From Opitutus sp. GAS368 (lineage in GTDB: Bacteria; Verrucomicrobiota; Verrucomicrobiia; Opitutales; Opitutaceae), in the NCBI GenBank assembly GCA_945868215.1, contig CAMBLN010000011.1, positions 1-34,167 on the forward strand: a stretch of 34,167 bases of DNA, written 5' to 3'. Positions 18,252 to 29,187 of the stretch are shown piece after piece; position 1 is the stretch's first letter; every line of letters starts with the position of its first letter. The notes beneath the pieces were generated by a model that saw only the letters and a list, made by a program, of their open reading frames with translations, was not told the origin of the DNA and made no database searches. Both the position numbers and the translations under genes were made by a program.

Positions 18252-18294
18252 GTTTGCTGGAAACGATGCGCGGGGCGGCGGGGCTGTCAAAAAA

Positions 18295-18783
18295 TCATCG
18301 CGTGAGGGCGTGAATATCGGCGGACCAATCGGGGAACGCGGTGACGAGGGTGTCGCGGCGGGCGAGGGAAAACTCCCGGTGGTCCCAACCCGGCGACATC
18401 GTGCAGCCGAGCAGTGCCCAGTCATGCGTGCGCGGGCCCGGTGCGAGCCGCGCGCCCTGGCAGGCGTGCGCAGGGACGATGAGTTGGGGGCGTTGACCGG
18501 CGGCAATGTCGGTGCCGAGGAGAGTTTTGGCGCCGGTGCGTGTGGACATATCGAACATGAGATGCTCGACCGGGTCGCCTGCGTAAAAGTGCCAGACCTC
18601 CTCGGTGGCGAGCGTGTGCAGCGCCGAGAATCCCCCGGGCGTGATCAGAAAATAAATCGCGGTGCCGGTCGGGCGTCCGCCGGGCAGCGAGACGTTGCTG
18701 ACATATGTTTGCCGGAAAAATCCACCTTCGTCGGGCAAGGGCTCCAGCTTCAGCAAGTCGATGGTCTCGGCGGCGGTGGGCAT
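18295..18783 (-). CDS. DUF985 cupin-family protein
   Basis: The protein has 162 residues. Its sequence [20 protein letters not shown] ... [39 protein letters not shown] ... [14 protein letters not shown] ... [24 protein letters not shown] matches the DUF985 (Cupin_5) group. Conserved His and Glu residues (SALHTL, EEVWHFY) are in cupin positions where a metal could be bound. No reaction is established for the family. It is the first gene of the five-gene minus-strand run, and its start at 18783 faces the M20 peptidase start, with 55 bases between them. Confidence 0.87.
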
Positions 18784-23603: not shown

Positions 23604-26600
23604 TCAGCCGACGACGGGGGGCGACGGTTGATCGTCGATTACTCCGCGCAGGGTCTTCAGCAGAATTTCGGCGGAGTAGGGTTTGGGGATGAACTGTTTC
23701 ACGCCGGCGCCGGCGGCTTTGGCGACGGCGCCGTTGGCGGTGATGCCACTGGCCGCGATGATGCGGACCGCGGGATTGAGTTTCATCAGAATCTGGATCG
23801 CCGCCGCGCCGTCCATCACGGGCATCATCATGTCGATGATCACGGCCGCGATTCGGGCGCGGTGTTCCGCATAGGCGGCCACGCCCTGGGCGCCGTCCGA
23901 GGCGTCGAGCACTTGATAGCCGAAGGTCTCCAACGTGTGCCGGGTGACGTGACGGATGGAGGCTTCGTCGTCGATGACGAGGATGGTTTCGCCGCGGCCG
24001 CGGGGCAGGTTGGTTTTCAGGCCGGTGGCGGGCGCGGAGGATTCGGCGACGCGCGCGGGCAGATAAATGCGGAAGCGGGCGCCTTTGTTTTCCTCGCTGT
24101 AAACGCGGATGAACCCCTCGTGGCTTTTGATGATGGCGAGCGTGGTGGAAAGCCCGAGCCCGGTGCCTTTGCCCACATCCTTGGTCGTGAAAAACGGGTC
24201 GAAAATCTTTTCGATGATGGAGGCGGGGATGCCGGTGCCGGAGTCTTCGACGTCGATCACCACGTGGGGCCCGGCTTTCGCATCGATGTTCAGGGCGATG
24301 TCGGTGGCGTCGAGTGACACATTCTCCGCGCTGATGAGCAACTGGCCGCCGTCGGGCATGGCGTCGCGGGCGTTGACGCAGAGGTTGAGCAGCACCTGGT
24401 GGAGTTGCGTGGGGTCGCCGATGAGCGTCCACAAATCGCCGCTGATGCGGGTGTCGATGACGATGTTTTTGGGGAACGTGTCGTGGGCGATTTTCTCGAT
24501 GTCGTGGATGAGATGGCGGGCCTGGACCTCGATGCGCCGGCTGTCCAGACCGCGGGCGAAGGAGAGCACCTGGCTGACCATGTCGGCGCCGCGGCGGGCG
24601 CTGGCGGCAATGGTGTTGAGGAGGGACAGCTTGTGGGCGTCGGCTTCCTTGAGCCGGATGAGGTCCACGGCCATGATGACGGGGGCGAGGACGTTGTTGA
24701 GGTCGTGCGCGATGCCGCCGGCGAGTGTGCCGATGCTTTCCATGCGTTGGGCGCGGAGGAACTGGTGCTCGAGTTTTTTCTTGGCGGTGATGTCGGTGTT
24801 GATGGCGAGGACCGAGCGGGGCGTGCCGGTTTCCTCGCGCACGAGCGTCCAGCGGCCTTCGATCATGAGCTCGGCTCCGTGCTTGTTGATCTGGTGGAGT
24901 TCGCCGACCCATTCGCCTTGGGAGAGAACCTGACGCATGGCCTCGCGGAAGGACGAGCGGTCCTTGTAGAGCAGGTCAGATGCGGAACGATGGAGGGCCT
25001 CTTCGGCGGTCCAGCCGTAAAGACGTTCGGCGCTCTTGTTCCAGAAGGTGATGCGGTGGTCGAGGTCGCGGACGATGATGGCGTCCTGGGCCTTGTCGAG
25101 GAGGGCGGCCTGCTCGCGCAGACGCGAGTCCACCTGCCGGCGCTCGAGTTCGGAAGCGGCGCGGGAGGCGAGGATTTGCAGCGAGGAGGCGATGTAGTCG
25201 GCGCGCTCCAGAGGCTGGTGGTAGAGAACCGCCATGATGCCGAGCAGCTTGCCCTCGGAGGTGACGAGAGGGTGGCCGACGTAGGCTTCCACGCGCAGGT
25301 CGGCCATGAGTTTGCTGGAAGGATGGATTTTCCGGACGTCGCGGGGGATGATGCAGGGGAGGGCGGGCGATACGTTTTCACACGGCGCGCCGACGAGGCT
25401 GTAGGTGAAGTTGTCGATGCGCTGACCGCCGGCGACGACGCAAAGCGTGTGGCAGAGCGTGGGGTCTTCGGAGTCGATCATGGCGACGGTGGCGATGTCC
25501 GCGCCGAGGGCGGAAACCATGCTGTGGGTGAGTTGGTGGAAAAACTCGACGCCCACCGAGGCGGACACGGCGCGCGCGACGGTGATGAGGGCTTCTTGCG
25601 TTTTCCGTCTTTCGGCGCGGATGCGCAGGATGTTGAGACCGAAGGCGAGGTCGGCGGCGAGTTGTTCGAGGAGTTTGATCTCGTCGTCGCCGATGTTGAG
25701 GATTTCGCCGGAGTAAAGCGCGAGGAGGCCCTGGGTGCGGAGTTCGCCGACGAGCGGCAGGCAGATGACGCCGCGATAGCCGCGTGCGCGCGCCGGTTCG
25801 CGCCAGAATACAAGCGGTTCGGTGGTCTCGATGTCGGCCAGCAAGGTGGTGCAGCCTTTGCGGATGGTGTTGCCCGCGGGGCCTTGTCCGCCCGGGGTGG
25901 CTTCGTCCCAGTTGAGGGAGATCGCGGACAGGTAGCCGTTTTCCGCGCCGGCGTGACTGATCGGGCGGATGGTGCGTGCCTCGTCCTCAAGTGCGAAGCC
26001 GGCCCAGGCCATGCGATAGCCGCCGATCTCGACGGCGATGTTGCAGATATCGCGGAGAAGCGTGGATTCGGATTCGGCCCGGATGAGGGCTTCGTTGCAT
26101 GCGCCGAGCAGACGTTGGGCGTGGTTGACGCGGGCGAGTTCTTGCTCGGCCCGGTAACGTGCGCTGACGTCCTCGGCGACGACGATGATGCTGCCGGCGT
26201 GGCCCTCGGCGGGGCGCACGATGGAGACGCTGGCGCGTTTCCATACGAAGCCGCCGGTCTTTTTTATGCAGCGGACCTCGGTGGTAAAATCGTTTTCAGG
26301 TCCGGTTTGCAGTCCCTTGAAGAGATCGATGCAGGCGGGGCGGTCCTCGGGGTGGATGATCTCCAGAAGCTGCCTGGTTTGCAGTTCGGATTCCGTGTAG
26401 CCCGTCGTGGCACAGTAGGAGGGATTGGCCTGGAGAAAACGACCGTCGGTCGACAAGACGGCGATGCCGGTGGCGGCTCCGTTGAACATGAGCTGGAAAC
26501 GTTCCTCGCCGGCGCGCATCCCGGTTTCCGCACGGGTGCGCTGATGGACCTCGTCGGCAAGTTCGCGGGTGCGCTGGTGCACCTTGCGGCGGATTTGGAG

Positions 26601-27014
26601 GTTCCAGAGCAGGATCAAGGCGACCAGCACGGCGGCGGCCGAACCGAGGCGAAGCGCCCATCGCGTGGTTTCCGTCTGATTGGCGGCGTGCGGATCGTAG
26701 AGGAATCCCTCGAGGGAGACTTCGGCGGGAGCCATGCCGACTTCGACGAAGGTCCGGGCGATTTTTTCCCAACTGCCCGGGTTCATGTGGCCGATCTGGA
26801 CCACGTCGGAGAGAATGAACGGCTTCATCGCCTCGGCCTCGGCCAGGAGGGATTCACGGGTGACGGCGCGTTGTTTCACGCCTTCCATCGCCAGAATGAG
26901 GCCGGCGATTTCGCCGGGATTTTTCAGGGCGTAGTCCCAGCCGCGCATACTGGCGCGCACGAAGGCGGCGGTGCGTTCCGGGTCGCGCTCGATCTGGTGT
27001 TCGGTCGTGAACAA
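23604..27014 (-). CDS. Large hybrid histidine kinase (PAS/GAF/PAS, kinase, receiver), C-terminal part of a frameshifted gene
   Basis: The open frame gives 1136 residues. About 115 residues of the end of an NMT1/THI5-like binding domain come first, then one membrane helix (about 120-142, RLGSAAAVLVALILLWN) and a coiled segment. PAS, two GAF-like regions and another PAS follow, then the phosphoacceptor region (GGIAHDLNNVLAPV), the ATPase domain (DSGTGIP, FDPFFTTKD, GTGLGLSTTL) and an intact receiver with Asp in VIIDMMMP and Lys in IPKPY. It is a membrane sensor that would transfer phosphate within itself. The first in-frame start (TTG at 27014) lies inside the binding domain. It should be read with the fragment at 26924-27706; the two frames join at the T4 run at 27026-27029, where one T appears to be missing. 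Confidence 0.88.
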   Translation of the reverse strand: MFTTEHQIERDPERTAAFVRASMRGWDYALKNPGEIAGLILAMEGVKQRAVTRESLLAEAEAMKPFILSDVVQIGHMNPGSWEKIARTFVEVGMAPAEVSLEGFLYDPHAANQTETTRWALRLGSAAAVLVALILLWNLQIRRKVHQRTRELADEVHQRTRAETGMRAGEERFQLMFNGAATGIAVLSTDGRFLQANPSYCATTGYTESELQTRQLLEIIHPEDRPACIDLFKGLQTGPENDFTTEVRCIKKTGGFVWKRASVSIVRPAEGHAGSIIVVAEDVSARYRAEQELARVNHAQRLLGACNEALIRAESESTLLRDICNIAVEIGGYRMAWAGFALEDEARTIRPISHAGAENGYLSAISLNWDEATPGGQGPAGNTIRKGCTTLLADIETTEPLVFWREPARARGYRGVICLPLVGELRTQGLLALYSGEILNIGDDEIKLLEQLAADLAFGLNILRIRAERRKTQEALITVARAVSASVGVEFFHQLTHSMVSALGADIATVAMIDSEDPTLCHTLCVVAGGQRIDNFTYSLVGAPCENVSPALPCIIPRDVRKIHPSSKLMADLRVEAYVGHPLVTSEGKLLGIMAVLYHQPLERADYIASSLQILASRAASELERRQVDSRLREQAALLDKAQDAIIVRDLDHRITFWNKSAERLYGWTAEEALHRSASDLLYKDRSSFREAMRQVLSQGEWVGELHQINKHGAELMIEGRWTLVREETGTPRSVLAINTDITAKKKLEHQFLRAQRMESIGTLAGGIAHDLNNVLAPVIMAVDLIRLKEADAHKLSLLNTIAASARRGADMVSQVLSFARGLDSRRIEVQARHLIHDIEKIAHDTFPKNIVIDTRISGDLWTLIGDPTQLHQVLLNLCVNARDAMPDGGQLLISAENVSLDATDIALNIDAKAGPHVVIDVEDSGTGIPASIIEKIFDPFFTTKDVGKGTGLGLSTTLAIIKSHEGFIRVYSEENKGARFRIYLPARVAESSAPATGLKTNLPRGRGETILVIDDEASIRHVTRHTLETFGYQVLDASDGAQGVAAYAEHRARIAAVIIDMMMPVMDGAAAIQILMKLNPAVRIIAASGITANGAVAKAAGAGVKQFIPKPYSAEILLKTLRGVIDDQPSPPVVG

Positions 27015-27706
27015 CGTGTCGCCATAAAATCGACGCCGTAGTCGATGCTGCGGAGCAGGGCCGGTGTCACGCCGCGCATGCCCATCTGGATGGGTTCCTC
27101 GGTGGCGTAGGCGGTCATCGCGTCGACCCGCTTTTCGACGAGGTCGTCGATGCTCCAGGTGTGCGGAACGATTTCCACGGACCCGTGGGGAATCCCTTCG
27201 CGCAGCAGCATGGCGATCATCAACGCGCGACCTTGTTCACCCACGAGCATCACGCGGGCGTTCACCAGATCCGCGGGCGTGCGGATGTTGCGGTCGGCCC
27301 GGCTCATGATCACGTCGGGTGCGTGTTGGAGGATCGCCGCGCAGGCGACGAGCGGCTGGCCCTTGAGCCTGCGGAGCACGACCGAACTGTCGTTGATGCC
27401 GAAGTGAGCGTCACCGGCCAGCACGGCGTCCATTGACGAGATGGACGACCGGCCTTGTTCGATGCGCACATTGAGACCTTCTTCCGCGTAGTAACCCTTG
27501 GCCTGCGCCGCGTAGAAACCGGCGAATTGAAACTGGTGCCACCACTTCAGGCGCAGCACCAGGGTGTCGTCCGTCGCGGCCTGCAACGAAACCGCACCGC
27601 ACATCAGAACCGCCGCCAAGACGGCCGTCATGCGAGGCCAGCCGGTGGGAGTCGCCTTCAAGAGAAAAGGGCGTCTGTTCCGGGCGGAAGCTGCGAGGTC
27701 TGGCAT
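26924..27706 (-). pseudogene. NMT1/THI5-like sensor domain, N-terminal part of the frameshifted kinase gene
   Basis: The frame from 27706 encodes a signal sequence or membrane anchor (MTAVLAAVLMCGAVSLQAA) and a binding-protein domain: LRLKWWHQFQFAGFYAAQAKGYYAEEGLNVRIEQG, GDAHFGINDSSVVL, and ALLRSIDYGVDF. This is the ABC-type solute-binding fold related to thiamine-precursor proteins. After GVDF the frame leaves the family pattern (MATRCSRP...) and runs to a stop at 26924. In the -1 frame, the sequence YGDTLFTTEHQIERDPERTAAFVRAS continues the expected family ending and leads into the kinase. Adding one T to the T4 run at 27026-27029 restores one long frame of about 1,367 residues. It could be a sequencing error, a recent mutation, or programmed -1 slippage. 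The start at 27706 is tentative. Confidence 0.8.
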
Positions 27707-27840: not shown

Positions 27841-29187
27841 TTAAGGGTTGTCCGCGCAAGCCGCGCGCACGCGTTCGCGCACGGAAAGCAGATGGGCGCG
27901 CAACCAGTAGAAACGATCCGCAAAGGACGCGGGGATCTTGAGGTGGTTCACGGCGTCTTCGATTTCATCGAGTCGCTCCAGCAGCTCCTTGGCGCGCCCG
28001 GGCGCGAGCGGCTCGAAACTTTCCTGCTCGATGCGCAGCAGCGGACGATAGCAGCGGTAGAGTCGCAGTTGGATGCTGAGCCGATACATCACGGGGAGCA
28101 GGCGGATCGCCGGGATGATGACCAGCGCCAGCGGCACCACGACCACCAGCAGGCGGTTGAGGAGGCTGGCCACCCAGAAGGAGCCGACCACGCGGTGCAA
28201 AAAGCCTTTGCCCGATTTGAAGTAGCGCACCGCCTCGTCGCTGAGCGGAATGTCGCGCTCGGTGAGCGCGGGAAATTCGGCCCGCCGCTGCAACAGGCCC
28301 GCGCGGCCGTGAACCTGTTTCGCCACGTCGAGCAACAGATCCGAAAGCGCCGCGTGCAGCTCCTCGCGCGCCACCAGTTCCACCGTCGGGCCGACCAGCA
28401 TGATGTCCTGAGCCGGCAGGTTTTTGCCGAGATCGATGGAGCCTTGCGGCAGGGGGATTTTATTCAGGAAGGCGTAGCGACGCTGATAGGCATCGGCCTG
28501 AGTGAACGTGAACAACTGCACGCCGGGCGCACGCACCAGAGTGCGCAGCGTTTGAATCGAAGCCGAGTCGCCCATCAGGAAAACCACGTCGAGTTTTTCC
28601 GCGAGCAGGGCCTCTGCGGCGGAGGAGGAGTCGAGGTCGCTGAAGACCGTCGGTTCGCCGGTGATGCCGTTGGACTGAAGCATGGCGAGCGCGAGCGCCC
28701 GCGTCGCACTGCCCTCGGTGCCGACCGCGATGCGCAGGCCTTCGAGTTGCGAGAGCCGCTGGATCGGCGCGTCGCCGCGATAGAATATCCAAAGCGGTTG
28801 GTTGCTTATGCTGCCGAGCGACATGAGGCCGGTGAGGTTTTCCTCTTTCACGTTGCCGCCCGCGACGAAGCCGATGTCGGCTCCGGCGGCCTGCAGACGG
28901 TGAAGGTTGTCGAGAGAGCCGGCGGACGGGATGATTTCGAGTGTCACGCCATGTTCGGCGAGGGCCTTTTGGTAAGCACCGGCCCAGCGGTGAAACGAAC
29001 TGCCCTCGGGTCCGCTGGTGAGCGTGAGTTTGCGTGGCGGCGCCGACTGCATGACCCAAGCGACGGCCAGCAAAAGCACGAACGAAATGAAGAGCGCGAC
29101 GACCAGTGCGAGCCCCGGGCTGAACCCGAAATTATCAATCAACGTGGCGACAAGCGGGAAGCGGCGGCGTGGTTTGGGTTTCGACAT
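27841..29187 (-). CDS. TAXI-family TRAP-type solute-binding protein with membrane anchors
   Basis: The protein has 448 residues. An N-terminal helix (about 24-46, LALVVALFISFVLLLAVAW) is followed by a periplasmic binding domain: LTLTSGPEGSSFHRWAGAYQKALAEHGVTLEII, AAGADIGFVAGGN, GLRIAVGTEGSATRALALAML, GEPTVFSDLDSSSAAEALLAEKLDVVFLMG. This is the TAXI (TRAP-associated extracytoplasmic immunogenic protein) pattern. A second hydrophobic segment (SLLNRLLVVVVPLALVIIPAIRLL) and a helical cytoplasmic tail follow, so it is anchored at both ends. No TRAP permease gene is present. It lies upstream of the NMT1-like sensor kinase on the same strand with 134 bases between them. A sensory accessory role is inferred rather than a transport role. 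Confidence 0.82.
   Translation of the reverse strand: MSKPKPRRRFPLVATLIDNFGFSPGLALVVALFISFVLLLAVAWVMQSAPPRKLTLTSGPEGSSFHRWAGAYQKALAEHGVTLEIIPSAGSLDNLHRLQAAGADIGFVAGGNVKEENLTGLMSLGSISNQPLWIFYRGDAPIQRLSQLEGLRIAVGTEGSATRALALAMLQSNGITGEPTVFSDLDSSSAAEALLAEKLDVVFLMGDSASIQTLRTLVRAPGVQLFTFTQADAYQRRYAFLNKIPLPQGSIDLGKNLPAQDIMLVGPTVELVAREELHAALSDLLLDVAKQVHGRAGLLQRRAEFPALTERDIPLSDEAVRYFKSGKGFLHRVVGSFWVASLLNRLLVVVVPLALVIIPAIRLLPVMYRLSIQLRLYRCYRPLLRIEQESFEPLAPGRAKELLERLDEIEDAVNHLKIPASFADRFYWLRAHLLSVRERVRAACADNP

Follow-up and report, generated by a model that had tools for sequence, protein, structure and literature searches.

The sensor domain described here is closest in sequence to a ThiY-type pyrimidine-precursor binding protein, the N-formyl-aminopyrimidine binding protein of PDB entry 3ix1 (E 1.9e-17 over query residues 23-251). 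This protein and yeast THI5 (PDB 4h65 and 4h6d) are free proteins of transport or biosynthesis, whereas the domain in the present locus is the sensor of a kinase. Because 3ix1 is its nearest relative by sequence, a pyrimidine or thiamine precursor would be a reasonable guess, and no more than a guess, for the ligand of this sensor. Hybrid kinases with such a sensor (Pfam NMT1, PF09084) are encoded in two genomes of the same genus, in Chitinophagaceae, in Sediminibacterium and in Magnetospirillum. The gene analysed here has their domain content, their domain order and the motif (V/I)DFYGD, but differs from them in that one base is missing. A literature search on NMT1-type kinases yielded nothing useful.

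Frameshifts of this kind have been surveyed with GeneTack in 1106 prokaryote genomes, and those confirmed by BLAST and present in a single genome were attributed mainly to sequencing errors and otherwise to recent indels (PMC3711429). Our gene is like the singletons of such surveys, without notable difference: it is broken in one genome only and has homologues that span the break.

The window, i.e. the whole stretch of 34,167 nucleotides analysed here, is the entire contig 11 of a genome in 220 contigs with an estimated completeness of 99.8%. One locus within it encodes an NMT1/THI5-like sensor, a membrane helix (by inspection), HisKA, HATPase_c and a receiver, and no single uninterrupted frame runs through it (Table 1). 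We conclude that the locus is very probably an ordinary hybrid histidine kinase gene from which a single base has gone missing, an isolated break that is not programmed and reflects either a null mutation of recent origin or an error in the consensus at this one place. The significance of the locus lies mainly in annotation, where it should be entered as a single NMT1-type hybrid kinase gene with a frameshift, neither as two genes nor as a case of recoding.

Table 1. Features of the split kinase gene (positions in the window)
Feature	Position	Strand
ORF1: signal-peptide-like N terminus and most of the NMT1/THI5-like periplasmic binding domain	26924..27706	-
ORF1 tail past the frame change: ~34 unrelated residues, then TGA 26924		-
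T4 run, point of the frame change; homologues usually have T5 (GAT TTT TAT/TAC GGx GAx)	27026..27029	-
ORF2 frame: end of the NMT1 domain, transmembrane helix, then (Pfam order) PAS, GAF, GAF, PAS, HisKA, HATPase_c, receiver	23604..27027	-

The reading frame changes within the sensor domain

The minus strand around the site reads GGCGTCGATTTTATGGCGACACGTTGTTCACG (from 27040 downwards), with the codons GGC GTC GAT TTT ATG GCG ACA. The ORF1 frame is free of stops between TGA 27772 and TGA 26924 and offers three in-frame candidate starts (ATG 27760, 27706 and 27631). The downstream (-1) frame has no stop between about 27236 and TGA 23604, a stretch of 1210 codons, and its translation across the site is (R)FYGDTLFTTEHQIERDPERTAAF.

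The earlier note had proposed that a one-base frameshift separates an NMT1-like sensor from its kinase at this point. We observed this split directly, since the NMT1 profile is divided between two frames, with positions 1-177 in ORF1 (E 1.8e-36) and positions 182-215 in ORF2 (E 5.6e-4), and the homology to an orthologue changes frame at the same place (see below). Both the translation and the Pfam matches also agree with the proposal that the -1 frame supplies the expected end of the binding domain, followed by the helix, which we located by inspection at WALRLGSAAAVLVALILLWNLQIRRK, and the kinase. Likewise, the length of about 1,367 residues predicted for the gene after addition of one T is reproduced with the start at ATG 27706, from which 1368 codons, or 1367 residues, are obtained up to the stop at 23604 when one base is added. 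When intact, a gene of this type encodes an ordinary hybrid histidine kinase that is bound to the membrane and carries a periplasmic sensor of the NMT1/THI5-like (pyrimidine-precursor) type.

The H, N and G motifs of ORF2 and those of its receiver are intact by eye. No further stop or frameshift was found across its ~1140 codons, in keeping with either a recent event or an error. As the kinase half keeps the membrane helix and its full set of catalytic motifs, and an in-frame ATG at 26948 precedes the ORF1 stop by 22 bases, we considered whether the locus might give two real products, one a binding protein that is secreted and the other a kinase translated from an internal start or by reinitiation. 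The position of the cut argues against this: it falls within the NMT1 fold, at profile position 177 of 216, so that neither piece holds a whole domain. Moreover, no clear ribosome-binding site was seen before ATG 26948, and none of the homologues has the split. Two separate products are therefore very unlikely.

Homologues encode the protein in one open frame

We read the site in 23 homologues from the window's own order, from Bacteroidota and from one Magnetospirillum. The motif (V/I)DFYGD was encoded in one frame in every one of them, and the split occurred in none. Their codons were mostly GAT TTT TAT or GAT TTT TAC, which contain a T5 run, and the others had GAC TTT or GAT TTC. In the window, the corresponding sequence is GAT TTT ATG and is one T short of T5. 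Judged from these sequences, the loss of one base from T5 to T4 would be the simplest account. As the related genes examined are all whole, the break points to an error in the sequence or to a mutation of recent date, not to a deliberate frameshift. Phase variation was also considered and is unlikely because a T4/T5 run is too short.

We searched 12 further genomes of the genus, and two of them contained a close relative of the gene, with 60% (G004) and 57% (G010) identity. Each of these orthologues is directly seen to be a single open frame, of 1639 codons in G004 and 1669 codons in G010. Both have the domain order found in the window with an unbroken NMT1 domain, and the same topoisomerase gene stands beside the kinase gene in all three genomes. 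In the window, the homology to these orthologues switches frame exactly at 27026-27029. The earlier note had called for a comparison with orthologues, and these proved to be single ORFs, usually with T5, and not two separate genes.

When the G010 orthologue was aligned with the window, its residues 114-311 matched frame -3 up to 27026 and its residues 311-619 matched frame -2 from 27029. The alignment is gapless at the junction and places the frame switch no more than 4 bases from the T run. On this alignment, the coincidence of the switch with the T run is not due to chance.

Two further differences between these genomes were noted. In the same-genus orthologues, the sensor and the remaining kinase appear to be separated by ~237 additional residues, an extra region of PAS type without counterpart in the window gene. 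In addition, a second NMT1-like gene (Pfam NMT1_3, PF16868, TAXI-type; 27841-29187, minus strand) sits immediately upstream of the split kinase gene and is apparently missing between topoisomerase and kinase in both relatives.

Signals for recoding at the frame change

In programmed -1 ribosomal frameshifting or transcriptional slippage, the tRNA at TTT would move back by one base and join the two frames to give DFYGDTLF. The earlier note had regarded programmed frameshifting as conceivable. A slip at this position would yield exactly the conserved DFYGD, and ORF2 is intact. However, a simple loss of one base predicts the same conserved product, which is therefore no evidence for recoding.

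The signals themselves were absent. The site has C GAT TTT in place of an in-phase slippery heptamer X_XXY_YYZ, so that only a one-tRNA slip (T TTT) is possible at the T run. The RNA downstream of the site folds no better than shuffled sequences (z +0.98 and +0.47), and no Shine-Dalgarno-like or purine-rich element is visible just upstream. A T4 run is also far below the runs associated with transcriptional slippage (Tn, n > 8; PMC3711429). Furthermore, the frame transition is not conserved, as none of the 23 homologues needs a frameshift to read the motif. With single-ORF orthologues, a site that is not a heptamer, no stimulatory structure and a split shared by no homologue, programmed frameshifting is unsupported and must be considered extremely improbable.

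The one-tRNA slip permitted by the T run might allow read-through in traces. If T4 is real and a few ribosomes slip, some full-length sensor kinase would still arise, in small amount, beside a secreted decoy sensor; we give hardly any weight to this combination.

We return to the loss of a single base outside any programmed mechanism, for which two origins are considered. There is about an even chance that a null mutation of recent date is present in the cells that were sequenced. If the base is truly missing, the locus would yield a truncated binding domain that is secreted and ends in an unrelated tail. The kinase would not arise in its normal form and would be lost, or be made in trace amounts only, from internal starts. 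This species would then have lost a sensor that is kept whole in two genomes of the same genus. A consensus wrong at a single base is a serious possibility, though at somewhat less than even chances, and in that case the locus would be a normal NMT1-type hybrid kinase gene.

Frameshifts elsewhere in the genome

As a test of the background, we searched 1.14 Mb of the present genome with ORFs taken from 0.82 Mb of G010. This comparison covers a portion of the genome, and with identities of 40-90% it would miss breaks near gene ends. About 150 G010 ORFs gave matches that could be used, with 51,071 aligned residues. Among four pairs of matches with a change of frame, the NMT1 kinase gene was the only one in which both halves fell in their best frame. 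In each of the other three pairs, at least one half fitted another frame better, and usually these were spurious antisense ORFs in GC-rich DNA; real genes in other frames account for all three. A second clean frameshift was thus not found in the ~150 gene comparisons with G010, which indicates that the assembly is not generally full of indel errors. This clean background speaks against an assembly that is error-prone throughout, but a single wrong base would be compatible with it.

An apparent second break relative to G010 (18289-18783, near 18780) turned out to be an artefact, the true gene being on the minus strand (18295-18783) beside a divergent gene on the plus strand. Finally, an open frame of 880 codons (24399-27041, plus strand) runs antisense to most of the kinase, and its end is next to the frameshift site. 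As long antisense frames occur commonly in this GC-rich genome, and in the relatives as well, this one is unlikely to be a gene.
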